In this document: in pieces, positions 29,567 through 38,212 of the stretch | Position numbering within the stretch: the stretch's first letter is position 1 | How the letters are laid out: each line of letters begins with the position of its first letter | NCBI GenBank assembly: GCA_027452205.1 | Contig: DAIDGV010000017.1 | Coordinates: forward strand, 62,001-126,000 | Length of the DNA: 64,000 bases | Direction: 5' to 3' | From: a candidate division FCPU426 bacterium | GTDB taxonomy: Bacteria; Oederibacteriota; Muellerivitia; Muellerivitales; Muellerivitaceae | Made by a program: the position numbers and the translations under genes | The notes under the pieces: generated by a model | What the model was told of the DNA's origin: nothing | Seen by the model: the letters and a program-made list of their open reading frames with translations, nothing else | Database searches by the model: none

Positions 29567-29594
29567 GACGGTCATTTTTGAGGAGAAGGTGCTC

Positions 29595-31115
29595 ATGACT
29601 GAATTGAACGAGTTCGTTAAGGTCCGTATCGAAAAGCTCAAGGCTCTCCGTGAAAAGGGTATCAATCCCTATCCCTCGGCGGCCTATGAAGTCACGCACC
29701 ACTCTAAAGACATCAAAGATAAGTACCAAGGCTTAGAAGCGGGCCAGCACGACGAAACCCTCAATGCTTCCGTCGCCGGGCGGTTGATGACCATCCGTGA
29801 CATGGGCAAGAGCGCATTCGCCCATCTACAAGATGCCCAAGGCAAGATCCAGATCTACGTCAAGAAAGACGCGGTGGGTGAAGAAGCCTACGCTATTTTC
29901 AAAATGCTCGACCTGGGCGACATCATTGGCGTGAAGGGCTTCCCCTTCAAGACCAAGACCGGGGAAGTGAGCATTCACGCGACTTCTTTTACGGTCCTCA
30001 GCAAGTCCCTGCATCCCTTGCCGGAAAAGTGGCATGGTTTGACCGATGTGGAAGCCCGTTACCGGAATCGCTATGTCGATCTGATCGTCAACGAAGACGT
30101 CCGCGATACCTTTATGGTTCGCTCCAAAGTGGTCCGCGCTATCCGCCAGTATTTAGATAACAGCAACTTCCTCGAAGTCGAAACCCCCATGATGCACAGC
30201 ATCCCCGGCGGGGCGGCGGCTAAGCCTTTTAAGACCCATCACAACGCTCTGGATATGGACATGTTCTTACGCATCGCTCCGGAACTTTATTTGAAGCGCC
30301 TTTTGGTGGGCGGTTTTGAGCGGGTGTACGAGATCAACCGTAACTTCCGTAATGAAGGCATCAGCATCAAGCACAATCCTGAATTCACCATGCTGGAAGC
30401 CTATCAAGCCTATGGCAATATCGATTCCGTGATGGCTTTGACCGAAAACCTTTTGGCGGAAGCCGCCAAAGCGGCGGGCAAGGGATTGAAGTTCATGGTG
30501 GGCCCTGAAGGCGAGCAAGTGGAGGTGGATTTCACCCCGCCCTTTAAGCGATTGCCCCTGCTGCAAGCCCTGAAGGAATTGGGCGGAATTGACTATGACA
30601 AGGTCGATGTTGAAGAACTGAAGCGCCGCGTGAAGGGCACTCAGGCAGTGGTGAAGCATATCGACAGCTTGTCGAAGGCGGAGTTGGCTTACCTTCTCTT
30701 TGGTGAATTGTGTGAATCCAAGTTGGTCCAACCCACCTTTATTACGGACTTCCCGGTGGAAGTGTCGCCTTTGGCTAAGGCCAAGGCGGACAACCCTTCT
30801 TTGACTGAGCGTTTTGAATTGTTCATCTTGGGCCGCGAATTGGCCAATGGCTTTTCTGAACTGAATGACCCGATCGATCAACGCAAGCGTTTTGAAAAGC
30901 AGGTTGATCTGCGCAAGGCGGGCGATGAAGAGGGGATGTACCTGGATGAGGACTTCATTCTTGCCCTTTCTTATGGCATGCCCCCGGCTGGCGGGGTGGG
31001 TATAGGCATTGACCGTCTTTTGATGTTTTTGACCAATAGCCCGTCCATTCGGGATGTGATCTTGTTCCCGCTGCTTCGTCATCGGGACGACGAAGAAAAA
31101 ATGGTTTTTGAGTAA
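29595..31115 (+). CDS. lysS: Lysyl-tRNA synthetase, class II
   Basis: This enzyme charges tRNA(Lys) (506 aa). The N-terminal OB-fold anticodon domain spans about residues 50-150, with VAGRLMTIRDMGKSAFAHLQ. Class II motifs follow: motif 1 EVETPMMHSIPGGAAAKPF, motif 2 FERVYEINRNFRNEGIS with HNPEFTMLEAYQAY, and motif 3 GVGIGIDRLLM. ATG 29595 lies eight bases after GAGGAG; the in-frame GTG 29589 is less likely. The order lysS, lolC/E, lolD is a known neighbourhood in several diderm groups, interrupted here by about 1 kb. Confidence 0.96.
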   Translation: MTELNEFVKVRIEKLKALREKGINPYPSAAYEVTHHSKDIKDKYQGLEAGQHDETLNASVAGRLMTIRDMGKSAFAHLQDAQGKIQIYVKKDAVGEEAYAIFKMLDLGDIIGVKGFPFKTKTGEVSIHATSFTVLSKSLHPLPEKWHGLTDVEARYRNRYVDLIVNEDVRDTFMVRSKVVRAIRQYLDNSNFLEVETPMMHSIPGGAAAKPFKTHHNALDMDMFLRIAPELYLKRLLVGGFERVYEINRNFRNEGISIKHNPEFTMLEAYQAYGNIDSVMALTENLLAEAAKAAGKGLKFMVGPEGEQVEVDFTPPFKRLPLLQALKELGGIDYDKVDVEELKRRVKGTQAVVKHIDSLSKAELAYLLFGELCESKLVQPTFITDFPVEVSPLAKAKADNPSLTERFELFILGRELANGFSELNDPIDQRKRFEKQVDLRKAGDEEGMYLDEDFILALSYGMPPAGGVGIGIDRLLMFLTNSPSIRDVILFPLLRHRDDEEKMVFE

Positions 31116-31604
31116 ATGAAGAGGTATTGCCTTAATCATGCCGATGTTGTTGCTGTGAACTTTTGCTATGTTTGTCGCGATTCGTTTTGTTCGAATTGTT
31201 TGGTAGAAGGAGAGAAGTACTTTTATTGCACTAAGTCGGCTTGTTCTGCGATGGCAGAGTTGGATCGGAAGGTCGTAACATCAATTTCTTCTTCGAATGT
31301 TCGGCTGTCGAGAGAAGTGAAGAAGAACATATGGTTAATGATTTTTTCTTTGGTTTTTTGTTTTTGGACCTTTTCTTCGATTGTTCAAATTAGGCAACTT
31401 GGCGGAGCCATGGGTTTGGGATTTGTCATCGTAGGACTTCCGGCGTTGCTGTTTTCGGTTTGTTTGATCGGTCAGTGTCGAAATTTCTTTATGAATTTTG
31501 CTAGGCGGACCGTCGATGAGAAGTTTATTTTTTTCTCTAACGCTGCGTTCTTTCTTGGGCTTTTTATTTTTGTTTTTTTTGTTCTACCAAAACTGATTTT
31601 TTAG
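31116..31604 (+). CDS. Zinc-finger (B-box-like) membrane protein, unknown function
   Basis: I do not recognise this 162-aa protein. Residues 5-43 hold a Cys/His cluster (CLNH, CYVC, CSNC, then two more Cys) spaced like a B-box-type zinc finger. Three hydrophobic helices follow at about 70-90, 95-117 and 138-160. The ATG directly follows the lysS stop. The DNA is visibly richer in T and in codons such as TTT and TCG/TCT than its neighbours, which suggests a later arrival. It lies in the insertion between lysS and lolC. Confidence 0.65.
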   Translation: MKRYCLNHADVVAVNFCYVCRDSFCSNCLVEGEKYFYCTKSACSAMAELDRKVVTSISSSNVRLSREVKKNIWLMIFSLVFCFWTFSSIVQIRQLGGAMGLGFVIVGLPALLFSVCLIGQCRNFFMNFARRTVDEKFIFFSNAAFFLGLFIFVFFVLPKLIF

Positions 31605-31612
31605 GTGATTTT

Positions 31613-31756
31613 TTGGCCTCTTATTTTGAAATATTCCATAGCCTTCGTTATCTAGGGCCCAAACTGAAGCGTTTGGCCGTTTCGATGCGGGCTTGGGTCG
31701 CGATCACCGGGACAGCTGTTGGCTTTTTGGTTTTGAATGTGAGCTGCTGGTTATGA
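31613..31756 (+). CDS. 47-aa peptide copied from the LolC N-terminus (intact short ORF or lolC remnant)
   Basis: TTG 31613 opens a 47-codon frame that lines up without gaps with the first 46 residues of the LolC-like permease at 32120. I count 22 identities, including FEIF, LRYL, KR, W and LNV, and ttttgaaatattcc is shared at DNA level. It covers the cytoplasmic helix and the first membrane span only, then stops. The stop overlaps the next ATG (ATGA), as in a translated gene. It is either a retained single-span peptide or a decaying 5' duplicate of lolC. Confidence 0.55.
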   Translation: MASYFEIFHSLRYLGPKLKRLAVSMRAWVAITGTAVGFLVLNVSCWL

Positions 31757-32100
31757 AAACGCAAAAGTTGCTTTATGTGGTTGGGTTCCTTTTCGTGGTC
31801 ATTGGTGCCTATATTGGGATCAAGAATGATATCCCCGCCAGCACGAAAGAAGCAGATCTCGAAAGCAAGTTCAAGGCGGCTTTGCTAGTTGGCACAGATA
31901 TCAAGACCGTCATCTCTTATTTGGATGCGAATAAAGTCGAACACGGCGATTTTGATAAAGATAACCATCAACTGATCGCGATGGTGGGTAATGTCGAGAA
32001 GGGTATGTTCGTCGTAACCGATGTTCAGATCACCTTTCACTTCGACAAGGATGACAAGTTACAGAGCCTGCTTTTGAAAGAGTTGCTGACGGGGCTTTAA
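31753..32100 (+). CDS. Membrane-anchored hypothetical protein in the lysS-lolC insertion
   Basis: This 115-aa product is unrecognised. It has one N-terminal hydrophobic segment (LLYVVGFLFVVIGAYIGI, residues 6-23) and a soluble alpha/beta domain of about 90 residues outside it, probably periplasmic. The ATG at 31753 overlaps the stop of the LolC-like short frame. A longer frame from 31693 exists but would run through that copy out of frame, so I reject it. It sits 19 bases before lolC. Confidence 0.6.
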   Translation: MKTQKLLYVVGFLFVVIGAYIGIKNDIPASTKEADLESKFKAALLVGTDIKTVISYLDANKVEHGDFDKDNHQLIAMVGNVEKGMFVVTDVQITFHFDKDDKLQSLLLKELLTGL

Positions 32101-32119
32101 AAAGTTATGCGGGGTTTTT

Positions 32120-33373
32120 TTGAACTCATCTTTTGAAATATTCCTTGGTCTTCGCTACTTACGCTCAAAGCGTAAGCGTTCAGCTATTTCTGTACTCACT
32201 TGGATCTCCGTTATCGGTGTAGCCATCGGGGTGATGGCCTTGAACGTGGTCCTTTCGGTCATGAACGGATTCGATGAAGACCTCAAATCCAAGATCGTGG
32301 GGCTCAACGCCCATATCATTGTCACCGGCTTTGAAAACAAGACTCTTTCGGATTATCAAAAGGTCCTGGATGGGGTCAGCAAGATGGACGATGTAACCGC
32401 TGCCGGACCTTATACCGAAGGCCAAGCTTTGGCCCGTTCCAAGCAAAAGTCCGTGGGGGTCATGGTCTGGGGCGTGGACCCGGATCATCCTCAAGCGGTT
32501 GCCGACCTCAATAAATACCTGTGGGATGCCAAATCGACCGATCTCAAGTCGCCGAACGTCGCTGGTTCGGGCCGCTCGGAACGTATTTTCCTGGGGGCTG
32601 AGTTGGCCCGCCGCCTGCAAGTGATGGTCGGGGACGACATCATCCTCTTCTTGCCCATCTTGCAACAAACCCCGATGGGCATGATGCCGATGAGCAAAAA
32701 GTTCCAAGTGGTGGGTCTGATGTCCACGGGCATGTATGACTACGACTCTTCCTATACCTTTGTTTCACTGGATAACGGCCAGAAGATATATCAACTCGAT
32801 AAAGACATCACAGGTGTTGCCATCAAGCTGGACAATGTGGATCTGGCGCCGAAGATAGCTGCTGAGATCCGAAAGAAATTCAACGGAGAGTATTTCGTTC
32901 AAGACTGGCTACAAATGAACCGCAACCTTTTTGTGGCCCTTCAGACCGAAAAGTGGGTCATGGGTATCATTCTTTTTCTTATCGTGCTCGTGGCGGCGCT
33001 GAATATCGTGAATCCTTTGACCATGATGGTCATTGATAAAACCAAAGAGATCGGCATTTTGAAAGCCATGGGCGCAACCGATAAAAGCGTGACCTTTATC
33101 TTCATCTTCGAGGGAATGTTCATCGGGGTTCTAGGTATTTTGATCGGCATCCTAGGCGGATTCATCCTTTGCCAGATCATTGCCATGGTTCCCATTCCGA
33201 TGCCCGGCGGGGGAATGGTCTATTACATCGACCGTTTGCCGGTCAAAGTAGACCCTCTCGTCTCTTATCTCATCATCCCGGTCTTGTCCGTTGTGCTTTG
33301 CTTCTTAGCCACCCTTTATCCCGCGCGTCAGGCCGCCAAGTTGGAGCCTGTTGATGCCATTCGGTACAGTTGA
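32120..33373 (+). CDS. LolC/LolE-type lipoprotein-releasing permease
   Basis: This is an inner-membrane ABC permease of the FtsX/MacB fold (417 aa) that extracts outer-membrane lipoproteins for release. Helix 1 is at about residues 22-46 and a large periplasmic domain spans about 47-270. Three helices lie at about 276-300, 325-355 and 385-405, with the coupling segment DKTKEIGILKAMGAT between helices 2 and 3. Only one permease gene is present, so it probably forms a homodimer with LolD. The TTG start at 32120 aligns with the family start. Confidence 0.92.
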   Translation: MNSSFEIFLGLRYLRSKRKRSAISVLTWISVIGVAIGVMALNVVLSVMNGFDEDLKSKIVGLNAHIIVTGFENKTLSDYQKVLDGVSKMDDVTAAGPYTEGQALARSKQKSVGVMVWGVDPDHPQAVADLNKYLWDAKSTDLKSPNVAGSGRSERIFLGAELARRLQVMVGDDIILFLPILQQTPMGMMPMSKKFQVVGLMSTGMYDYDSSYTFVSLDNGQKIYQLDKDITGVAIKLDNVDLAPKIAAEIRKKFNGEYFVQDWLQMNRNLFVALQTEKWVMGIILFLIVLVAALNIVNPLTMMVIDKTKEIGILKAMGATDKSVTFIFIFEGMFIGVLGILIGILGGFILCQIIAMVPIPMPGGGMVYYIDRLPVKVDPLVSYLIIPVLSVVLCFLATLYPARQAAKLEPVDAIRYS

Positions 33374-34068: not shown

Positions 34069-34623
34069 ATGCTTTGTCAAAAATGCCAAGAACGTCCCGC
34101 GACGGTTTTCTTTACCCAAACCATCAATAACGAAACCACGCAGATGCATCTGTGCGAAATTTGCGCGAAAGAGCAGAGCCCGATGTATGGCGGATTGAAT
34201 ATCGCCCAATTCAATCCGCTGGCGGCCCTGACCAACATACTCAATTCGGTCATTTCGATGGAAGGGAATCCGATGAGTCCGGTGGGGCTGGGCCGGGAAG
34301 CCCAAGCCCCTGAGCAACAGCTTCAGTGTCCCCATTGTGGTTATCAACTTGCAGCTTTTCGTCAGACTGGCCGTTTGGGCTGTACTCGCTGTTATGAAGC
34401 TTTTCGTAAAGCTTTAGAGCCGGTGATAACAGGTATCCATGGTCCTGTCCTGCATATCGAGGAAACACCAGTAACTTCTGTGACCGAAAGCTCCAAGCCT
34501 GTTCCTGACGCAAAACCCGAAGTGGAACAGATCCGGGAAAAGATCAAAGAAGCCATCCAAAACGAACGCTATGAAGAAGCGGCCCGTCTGCGCGATGAGA
34601 TCAAAAAGATCGAGGGTAAGTAA
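34069..34623 (+). CDS. mcsA: McsA-like zinc-finger activator of the protein arginine kinase
   Basis: This 184-aa protein has two zinc-finger regions: CQKC with CEIC at residues about 3-31, and CPHC with CTRC at about 86-108. A C-terminal UVR motif (IKEAIQNERYEEAARLRDEI) binds UvrB/ClpC-type partners. In Bacillus, McsA activates the arginine kinase McsB. Its stop overlaps the mcsB start by one base (TAATG), so the two are made together. Confidence 0.9.
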   Translation: MLCQKCQERPATVFFTQTINNETTQMHLCEICAKEQSPMYGGLNIAQFNPLAALTNILNSVISMEGNPMSPVGLGREAQAPEQQLQCPHCGYQLAAFRQTGRLGCTRCYEAFRKALEPVITGIHGPVLHIEETPVTSVTESSKPVPDAKPEVEQIREKIKEAIQNERYEEAARLRDEIKKIEGK

Positions 34624-35684
34624 TGGCTTTCGAAGAAATGCTCACTTCCCACAACGATTGGTTCCTTTGCCCTGGCCCATCCTGCGGGGTAGTGGTCTCG
34701 AGTCGGGTGCGGTTGGCCCGCAATTTAGAGGGCAAAAAATTCCCTCATCACGCCAGTTCAACGGAACAAAAAGAAGTCGTGACAGAAGTCGAAAAGGCTA
34801 TCGGGAGTCTGCCGATGACGAAGCACTTGAAGATGGTCCGATTGAACGAGATATCCTCCCTTGACCGGCAATTCCTGACCGAACATCAGATCATTTCCCT
34901 GGAACACGCGGCAGGATTGGGCGAACGGGCGGTAGCCTTTGAACCTGAATCTGGCCTTAGCCTTTTGGTGAACGAAGAGGACCATTTACGCTTGCAGGTT
35001 TACCGTGCCGGACTGAGTTTGAAAGAGGGTTTTCAATTCTTGAACGAAGTGGACGAAGCCCTGGGGAAGCAATTGACCTATGCCAAGGACCCGCAGTTGG
35101 GTTACCTGACGGCCTGCCCAACCAACTTAGGGACAGCCCTCAGGGCTAGTGTGATGCTGCATCTCCCGGCTTTGGCTTACACCAACCGTCTGGCCCAGGT
35201 TTTTAACGGGGTCAACCAGGTAGGTTTGACGGTGCGGGGTATCCAGGGGGAATCCACCCAGGTGGCCAGCGCTTTCTTCCAGATCTCCAACCAATCGTCG
35301 CTAGGCAAGAAGAGCACCGAGGTCATCGAGCATGTGGACCGGGTAGCCCGCCAGATCGTGGAGCTGGAATTGCAGACCCAAAAGGCGGTCTTTCAGCAAG
35401 AGGGGATCAAGATCCAGGACCGGATCTGCCGCGCCTTGGGTACTTTGAAAAATGCCAAAATGATGAGCATTAAAGAGGCCATGGACGGTTTGTCGGCCTT
35501 GCGGGTAGGCGTTGAGCACAAAATTTTGACCGGTATCGACTTGCCAAAGCTGAACCACCTTCTCATCTTAATTCAACCGGCCCATCTGGCTAAGATCGCT
35601 GCCCGGGAATTGAACCCCGAGCAAGAGGCGATGGAAAGAGCCAGGATCCTGGGACTTTACTTAAAGCCTGCCGAGACTGTTTAA
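34623..35684 (+). CDS. mcsB: Protein arginine kinase
   Basis: This 353-aa enzyme is of the phosphagen-kinase fold and phosphorylates arginines on proteins, marking them for ClpCP. Nucleotide-binding arginine motifs are VVVSSRVRLARNL at the N-terminus, RASVMLHLPAL in the middle, and RGIQGESTQVASAFFQISNQ (residues about 207-226). The McsB-type end LGLYLKPAETV is present. Together with McsA and ClpC it forms the arginine-tagging degradation module; the repressor gene ctsR, present in Firmicutes operons, is missing here. Confidence 0.92.
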   Translation: MAFEEMLTSHNDWFLCPGPSCGVVVSSRVRLARNLEGKKFPHHASSTEQKEVVTEVEKAIGSLPMTKHLKMVRLNEISSLDRQFLTEHQIISLEHAAGLGERAVAFEPESGLSLLVNEEDHLRLQVYRAGLSLKEGFQFLNEVDEALGKQLTYAKDPQLGYLTACPTNLGTALRASVMLHLPALAYTNRLAQVFNGVNQVGLTVRGIQGESTQVASAFFQISNQSSLGKKSTEVIEHVDRVARQIVELELQTQKAVFQQEGIKIQDRICRALGTLKNAKMMSIKEAMDGLSALRVGVEHKILTGIDLPKLNHLLILIQPAHLAKIAARELNPEQEAMERARILGLYLKPAETV

Positions 35685-35697
35685 AGTCCTTAGTTCC

Positions 35698-35726
35698 TTG
35701 ATTTATCCCCTTTATTCGGATGAAAT
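35698..35726 (+). promoter_or_regulatory. Candidate promoter of clpC
   Basis: TTGATT (35698-35703), a 17-base spacer and TGAAAT (35721-35726) lie in the 80-base gap before clpC. A short inverted repeat, GCCG-GAAATT-CGGC (35731-35744), follows at the expected transcript start and could be a hairpin or operator. No CIRCE or CtsR-type operator is visible. Confidence 0.4.
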
Positions 35727-35764
35727 AGGGCCGGAAATTCGGCAATTCCCATAAGGAGAATTCC

Positions 35765-38212
35765 ATGTTCGAACGATTCACTGAAAGAGCTAAAAAAGTC
35801 ATCAACCCGTTGGCCAAAGAAGAAGCCCGCCGCTTGAACCATAACTTCATCGGTACCGAGCACTTGTTGCTCGGCCTTATTCGCGAGGGGGGCGGAGTGG
35901 CCGTGGCCGTGCTCGAATCGTTGGGTGTGGACCTGGAATCGGTCCGGGTCGAGGTCGAGAACCTGACCACCCCTTCTTCGGATACCTTGACCATTGGGGA
36001 TCCCCAATTCACCCCGTCCGCCAAGAAGGTGCTGGAACTGGCTGCTGAAGAATCCCAAAAGCTGGGCCACAACTACATCGGCACCGAACATTTGCTCCTG
36101 GGTTTGATCCAAGAAGGGGAAGGCGTCGCCGCCCGTTCCTTGGACAACTTGGGCGTTTCCTATGAAAAGTCCCGCGACATGGTGATCAACCTGTTGGGGG
36201 GAACTTTCCCCAAATTCTCCAAACAAGCCAAGAAGTCGAAGACCCCGGCCTTGGATGCTTTTGGCCGCGACCTGACCCAAATGGCCCGCGACGGCAAGTT
36301 GGACCCGGTCATTGGCCGTGAGGATGAAATTGAACGTGTTATCCAGATCCTTTCCCGCCGCACGAAGAACAATCCGGTCTTGATCGGCGAACCGGGCGTT
36401 GGGAAAACCGCCATCGCCGAAGGTTTGGCGCAACGTATCAAAGAAGGCAATGTTCCGGAACTGCTCTTGGAAAAACGCATTGTTACCTTGGACTTAGCCG
36501 CTTTGGTGGCCGGCACCAAGTACCGCGGTGAGTTCGAAGAACGTTTGAAAGCCGTCATTAACGAGATCCGTCAATCGGGCAAGGTCATTTTGTTCATTGA
36601 TGAATTGCATACCTTGGTTGGCGCGGGCGCGGCTGAAGGCGCGATCGACGCTTCCAATATGCTCAAGCCGGCTTTGGCCCGGGGCGAATTGCAGTGCATT
36701 GGCGCCACGACCTTGAACGAATACCGAAAATACATCGAGAAGGACGGCGCTTTAGAACGCCGCTTCCAAATGATCATGGTGGAAGAGCCCTCGGTGGAGA
36801 ACACCATCCAGATCATCAAGGGTCTGCGCGACCGTTATGAAGCCCATCACCGGGTTCGTATCACGGATGATGCTATCCAAGCAGCGGCCACTTTGTCGCA
36901 TCGCTATATCTCCGGTCGTTTTTTGCCGGACAAGGCCATCGATCTGATCGATGAGGCGGGAAGCCGTACGCGCCTGCGTATCACCACGATCCCGCAAGAG
37001 ATCCGCAACCTCGAAAAGGAAGTGGAGAAGGTGAAGCAGGAGAAGGAAGAGGCCATCAAGACCCAGGAGTTCGAACGGGCGGCCGACCTTCGCGACAAGA
37101 TGAAAAAAATGAAGCAGAAGTTGATGGAGGAAAAGGAAAAGTGGGAAGCTTCCAAGTCCAAGGAAGAAGCAGTCGTGAGTTGGGAAGATATTGCCCACGT
37201 GGCCTCTAAGTGGACAGGCATCCCGATGATCAAACTGGGTGAGAAGGAAAGCGAAAAGCTTTTGCGCATGGAAGAGGAACTGCACAAGCGCATCGTGGGT
37301 CAGGATGAGGCTATTGTCTCGGTCTCGAAAGCTATTCGTCGCAGCCGCGCCGGGATCGGAAATCCCCGCAAGCCCATCGGCAGTTTCATGTTCATGGGTC
37401 CCACGGGTGTCGGCAAAACCGAGTTGGCCCGGGCCTTGAGCGAGTTCTTGTTCGACGACGATGACGCGCTGATCCGTTTCGACATGAGCGAATACATGGA
37501 AAAATTCAACGTCTCCCGTTTGGCCGGGGCCCCTCCGGGCTATGTGGGCCATGACGAGGGCGGACAGTTGACCGAGAAAGTGCGCCGCAAACCTTATAGC
37601 GTGGTGCTGTTTGATGAGATCGAAAAGGCCCATCCGGAGATCTTCAACGTGATGTTGCAGATCCTCGAGGATGGCCGCTTGACCGACAGCATGGGCCGCA
37701 CGGTCGATTTCCGAAATACGGTCATCATCATGACCAGCAACTTGGGCGCCCGTGAGATTGGCGTAGAGAAGAGCCTGGGGTTCACCCCGGAGGGTGTGGA
37801 TTCTTCCTATACCAATATGAAAACCAAGATCCAAGCGGAGCTCAAAAAGGCTTTCAACCCCGAGTTCATCAACCGGGTCGACGACGTCATCATCTTCGAG
37901 CCCTTGGAAAAGGCCCAGATCGAGAAGATCGTCGATATCCAATTGGCGGACGTTCAAAAGCGGTTGGCGGAAAAGCATATCACCATCACCTTGGATCAAT
38001 CGGCCCGGGAATTCCTGGTCGAAAAGGGTTACGACAAGGTCTACGGCGCGCGTTCCATGAAGCGGACCATCCAACGCTATGTGGAAGATTCGCTCGCCGA
38101 GGAGTTGCTTCGCGGCACCATCTCGGAAGGCCAGACGGTCCTTCTGAGGTCGGGCGGCGACAAGCTAGTCTTCGAAAAGGCCGAAAGCTCCGCCGCGCCG
38201 GCCACTGTTTGA
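35765..38212 (+). CDS. clpC: ATP-dependent Clp protease ATP-binding subunit ClpC
   Basis: This Hsp100 unfoldase (815 aa) feeds proteins to ClpP. It has two N-terminal repeats ([17 protein letters not shown] and [17 protein letters not shown]), AAA1 with GEPGVGKTA and [14 protein letters not shown], a middle domain with a UVR-like helical hairpin ([12 protein letters not shown], about residues 437-448), and AAA2 with [14 protein letters not shown]. The middle domain identifies ClpC rather than ClpA/ClpB and is where adaptor/kinase proteins dock. A strong AAGGAG precedes the ATG. It is downstream of mcsA-mcsB. Confidence 0.97.

Follow-up and report, generated by a model that had tools for sequence, protein, structure and literature searches.

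In the 64-kb window, the whole stretch of DNA that was analyzed here, a frame of 47 codons between lysS and lolC is, by sequence comparison, homologous to part only of the intact lolC gene that lies nearby. The reading that we favor, with about as much doubt as confidence, is that this frame is a relic of a partial duplication of the genome's own lolC, that it is unconstrained as a LolC segment, and that it now most likely persists as a translated leader for the next frame, ORF3. The features of the locus are as follows.

29589 to 31115, + strand: lysS, the upstream neighbor; in relatives it is followed by lolC with no intervening gene
31116 to 31604, + strand: ORF1, 162 aa, beginning directly at the lysS stop; N-terminal B-box-like zinc motif, hydrophobic C-terminal part, AT-rich
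31603 to 31608, + strand: Shine-Dalgarno (SD)-like AGGTGA, 4 bases before the fragment TTG; anti-SD duplex of −6.7 kcal/mol
31603 to 31741, + strand: duplicated segment (translation start region plus codons 1 to 43 of lolC); gapless DNA and protein homology to 32110 to 32248
31613 to 31756, + strand: 47-aa frame containing the lolC fragment; TTG start, TGA stop; last 4 codons unlike LolC
31753 to 31756, + strand: ATGA overlap of the fragment stop and the ORF3 start, seen in the sequence
31753 to 32100, + strand: ORF3, 115 aa; N-terminal hydrophobic stretch; this genome only; local-type codon usage; without an SD of its own
32120 to 33373, + strand: lolC/lolF-type permease gene (intact parent copy); TIGR02212 match above cut-off; LolF the closest solved relatives

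The frame matches the first 43 codons of lolC

Translation of positions 31613 to 31756 gives the TTG-started peptide LASYFEIFHSLRYLGPKLKRLAVSMRAWVAITGTAVGFLVLNVSCWL, followed by TGA, with no internal stops. The intact lolC starts on the same strand with a TTG at 32120, 507 bases downstream of the TTG of the frame. An initial annotation of this DNA had pointed out the uninterrupted frame, its ATGA overlap with the next gene (ATG at 31753), and the presence of LolC encoded some 500 bases later, and all three were borne out. It had also described an end-to-end alignment over LolC residues 1 to 46 with 22 identities. The gapless alignment and the 22 identities stood, but all identities fell within residues 1 to 43 (22/43), and significant homology stopped at codon 43 (31741/32248) of the 417 in lolC. 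If the homology continued past codon 43, with one base deleted, as far as the ATGAA at Met48, the fragment and ORF3 would be a former in-frame fusion; random 30-mers scored as well as this extension (P = 0.40), which was rejected. Because residues 44 to 47 are unmatched and the extension to ATGA is attributable to chance, "end to end" was a slight overstatement.

The proposed DNA-level match also held, with 31603 to 31741 aligning to 32110 to 32248 at 64% identity over codons 1 to 43. This homology begins about 10 bases before the start codon and includes a T-rich start region. Against random expectation the similarity stood at both levels: the local BLOSUM62 score of fragment and LolC was 111, compared with 51 for the best of 2,000 shuffles, and the local DNA score was 43, whereas 1,000 shuffles reached at most 19. 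The second-ranked frame of the window scored 41. A genome-wide search with the fragment returned lolC as the sole other good match (E = 1e-8). The shuffles, the scores of all remaining frames in the window, and the homology in DNA together rejected a chance likeness of membrane helices. An assembly duplication was rejected because the copies disagree at 36% of their bases. When the window was compared with itself for other gene scraps, the only further matches were between known paralogues (NuoL/M/N-type proteins, TPR proteins, and one weak clpC match).

The intact parent gene encodes a full-length match to TIGR02212 (366.4 bits versus a cut-off of 362.45), and its closest matches in the PDB are LolF chains (E = 4e-69). 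Because LolF proteins are the closest PDB relatives, the sequence suggests that LolC here forms a homodimeric exporter. This LolC/E-type permease gene lies beside lolD and has a TTG start, as it does in several relatives. Downstream of lolCD, positions 34069 to 38212 of this FCPU426-type genome hold mcsA-, mcsB- (arginine kinase), and clpC-like genes, identified by eye. The mcsA-mcsB-clpC arrangement is known from Firmicutes.

The fragment lies in an insert specific to this genome

Here, about 1 kb (31116 to 32100), made up of ORF1, the fragment, and ORF3, separates lysS from lolC. The seven nearest relatives that gave a full match, six from the same family and one from the same order, have lolC as the next gene after lysS, with neither a gene nor the fragment in the gap, which measures a few bases to about 120. 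A search for the peptide in relatives, as the initial annotation had suggested, found the fragment in this genome alone among 39 searched. A second lolC start was absent from every other lolC locus inspected, and each of the nearest relatives has a single LolC N terminus. Among the genomes compared, the host is the sole species of its genus, and its family is represented by seven further genomes. On this comparison of gene order, the approximately 1-kb lysS-lolC insert is specific to this genome. Its AT content is higher than that of its flanks.

ORF1 encodes a divergent zinc-motif protein. Its N terminus is a B-box-like cysteine/histidine motif, CLNHADVVAVNFCYVCRDSFCSNCL, that scores under the Pfam cut-off, and its C-terminal part is hydrophobic. 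Weak family relatives occur at other loci and have only the zinc part in common with it (for example L055, of 214 aa, with a different C-terminal part).

Constraint on the fragment is relaxed

When the fragment branch was given its own omega in a codon model, the estimate was 0.42, compared with 0.05 for the LolC background. The fragment value exceeded that of the background (likelihood ratio test [LRT], 5.4 to 5.8) and was not distinguishable from 1 (LRT, 1.4 to 1.5), and three topologies agreed on both points. With 42 codons, the likelihood profile was broad, from about 0.08 to 2.3 (interpolated), so these data are also compatible with weak purifying selection. Changes in the fragment affected 12 of 26 residues that are invariant across eight LolC proteins, among them L9H, S16P, and L26R, versus 8 of 16 variable residues.

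When neutral drift was simulated to roughly the extent observed, the frame stayed open in 35 to 50% of cases. The hydropathy of the fragment (1.8 in the maximum 19-residue window and 1.6 in the aligned span) was likewise drift-like, since neutral drift of the LolC segment gave 1.5 to 1.8. The open frame is for these reasons weak evidence for function. Most likely, as judged from the codon comparisons, the fragment has lost the constraint of a LolC segment and is now either fully neutral or weakly constrained.

A possible translated leader for ORF3

In the history that we favor, the 5′ end of the genome's own lolC, comprising the ribosome-binding region and 43 codons, would have been duplicated after the split from the nearest sampled relatives. 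The same rearrangement history would have placed the approximately 1 kb containing ORF1, the fragment, and ORF3 between lysS and lolC, and the fragment would have lost its constraint as a LolC segment. Ribosomes may now initiate at the AGGTGA/TTG of the fragment, translate its 47 codons, and terminate at the ATGA, where they could reinitiate on the SD-less ORF3.

The SD duplex energy of the fragment (−6.7 kcal/mol) is in the range of neighboring real genes, compared with −2.7 kcal/mol for ORF3 and a random mean of −3.3 kcal/mol. By itself this energy says little, since energies of −7.1 kcal/mol turn up at about 5% of random positions. ORF3 has a codon score of +0.47 per codon in frame, versus about −1 in each of the remaining frames on that strand, and so matches local genes. 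Searches of 45 genomes of the phylum, of phages, and of plasmids found no relative of ORF3, and Pfam, NCBIfam, PHROGs, and the PDB yielded noise only. Its AlphaFold model (mean pLDDT, 41) was too poor for use. Translation of the fragment, its coupling to ORF3, and a functional ORF3 are each plausible from these features.

Reinitiation after termination at an ATGA overlap is a well-documented way of coupling translation (PMC6728339). The locus resembles such pairs in its ATGA, in the SD-like site on the upstream frame, and in the adjacent downstream frame; it differs in having a short piece of a gene instead of a full gene as its upstream frame, in having no SD at the downstream start, and in that the coupling is putative. 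In E. coli pairs that were tested, deleting the SD of the second gene usually cut reinitiation strongly (PMC6728339), and ORF3 may therefore be poorly translated.

A somewhat less probable but serious alternative is that the same partial lolC duplication left junk that is untranslated or irrelevantly translated, with ORF3 being translated independently or never. Relaxed constraint and occurrence in a single genome agree with this, as does the 35 to 50% chance that a neutral frame would stay open. What favors a leader instead is that the SD-like site is kept at normal spacing in the start region and that the frame ends exactly in an ATGA shared with a frame of coding codon usage. Compared with partial (5′) duplicates and truncated tandem pseudogenes of bacteria, the fragment is alike in being a short segment of a neighboring gene, on the same strand, in one genome, and under relaxed constraint. 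It shows three marks of a decaying partial duplicate, namely, partial homology, absence at the same place in relatives, and loss of the constraint on the parent. It differs from such duplicates in its full-length open frame, its SD-like site, and its ATGA overlap with a downstream ORF.

Origin of the fragment

The fragment most likely arose by partial duplication of lolC within this lineage, judging from its placement and from shared sequence. With nucleotide data, its position as sister to the genome's own lolC had the best likelihood. Several deeper placements were not rejected (for example, that beside L009, with an AU p of 0.31), as expected because the fragment has 42 codons. It is identical to its own LolC at 22/43 residues and to other LolC proteins at 19 to 21/43, and a T-run before the TTG is common to the fragment and its own lolC but absent in relatives. 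The suggestion in the initial annotation that the frame might mark a duplication tied to the insertion fits these results, in that relatives have lysS-lolC without an intervening gene and the fragment groups best with its own lolC. The duplication may have produced a full tandem copy that was later cut down, or it may have copied the 5′ end directly.

We consider it improbable that the fragment instead came from the lolC of another lineage and was transferred horizontally along with ORF1 and ORF3. The placements outside its own lineage that were not rejected, such as that next to L009, would allow a foreign source, as would an insert richer in AT than its flanks, but both the best likelihood and the highest identity are with the lolC of this genome, with which it also shares the T-rich stretch that relatives lack.

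A helix 1 mimic is very unlikely

The initial annotation had also raised the idea that the frame is retained by selection as a single-span mimic of LolC helix 1, able to pair with the permease and modulate it. Here it would be a functional microprotein acting on the LolC/LolF permease dimer. The results did not support this, and we regard it as very unlikely. A TM1 mimic is conceivable, since the two halves of E. coli LolCDE are held together chiefly by TM1-TM2 contacts (PMC9595528). The fragment retains a hydrophobic span with a basic N-terminal flank (maximum 19-residue hydropathy, 1.8), and its omega profile leaves room for some purifying selection. On the other side, the fragment occurs in no relative searched, its hydropathy of 1.6 in the aligned span falls in the neutral-drift range, and L9H, S16P, and L26R alter LolC-invariant sites. 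Residues V44, V47, and M48 in helix 1 of E. coli LolC contact the lipoprotein acyl chain (PMC9595528). The parent LolC here has V44, V47, and M48 at identical numbering, its match to E. coli LolC beginning at residue 6 of both proteins, but the fragment has S44 and L47 and ends before position 48, so that the acyl-contact end of helix 1 is missing. The positive support for a mimic is the hydrophobic span, and the sequence comparisons do not support it, because omega is 0.42 and fits neutrality, 12/26 invariant residues are changed (versus 8/16 variable ones), the acyl-contact end is missing, and the frame would stay open under neutrality in 35 to 50% of cases.

The single-span transporter regulator AcrZ, which acts on AcrB (PMC7267776), is likewise short, with a single hydrophobic span; the fragment shares these traits and lies beside a transporter gene. 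It differs from AcrZ in being derived from the transporter, unconserved, and without a sign of selection, and any interaction would be purely hypothetical. AcrZ-like function would call for a conserved peptide under purifying selection; no other carrier turned up among the genomes searched, and purifying selection was not significant (42 codons, low power). There is similarly little chance that the duplicated LolC start gave rise to a novel membrane peptide of 47 aa and that this peptide and the genome-specific ORF3 jointly regulate the LolF-type exporter encoded just downstream; if true, the peptide would be a newborn small regulator derived from helix 1 of the very protein that it regulates.

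Significance

The fragment leaves what is known of lipoprotein export unchanged, and as an outcome of gene duplication it is minor and ordinary. Should the leader reading be wrong, it is an ordinary duplication scar. Should that reading be right, the locus would illustrate, on a small scale but clearly, how a piece of an established gene, here lolC, can provide a lineage-specific gene within an operon with a ready ribosome-binding site and a stop for coupling.
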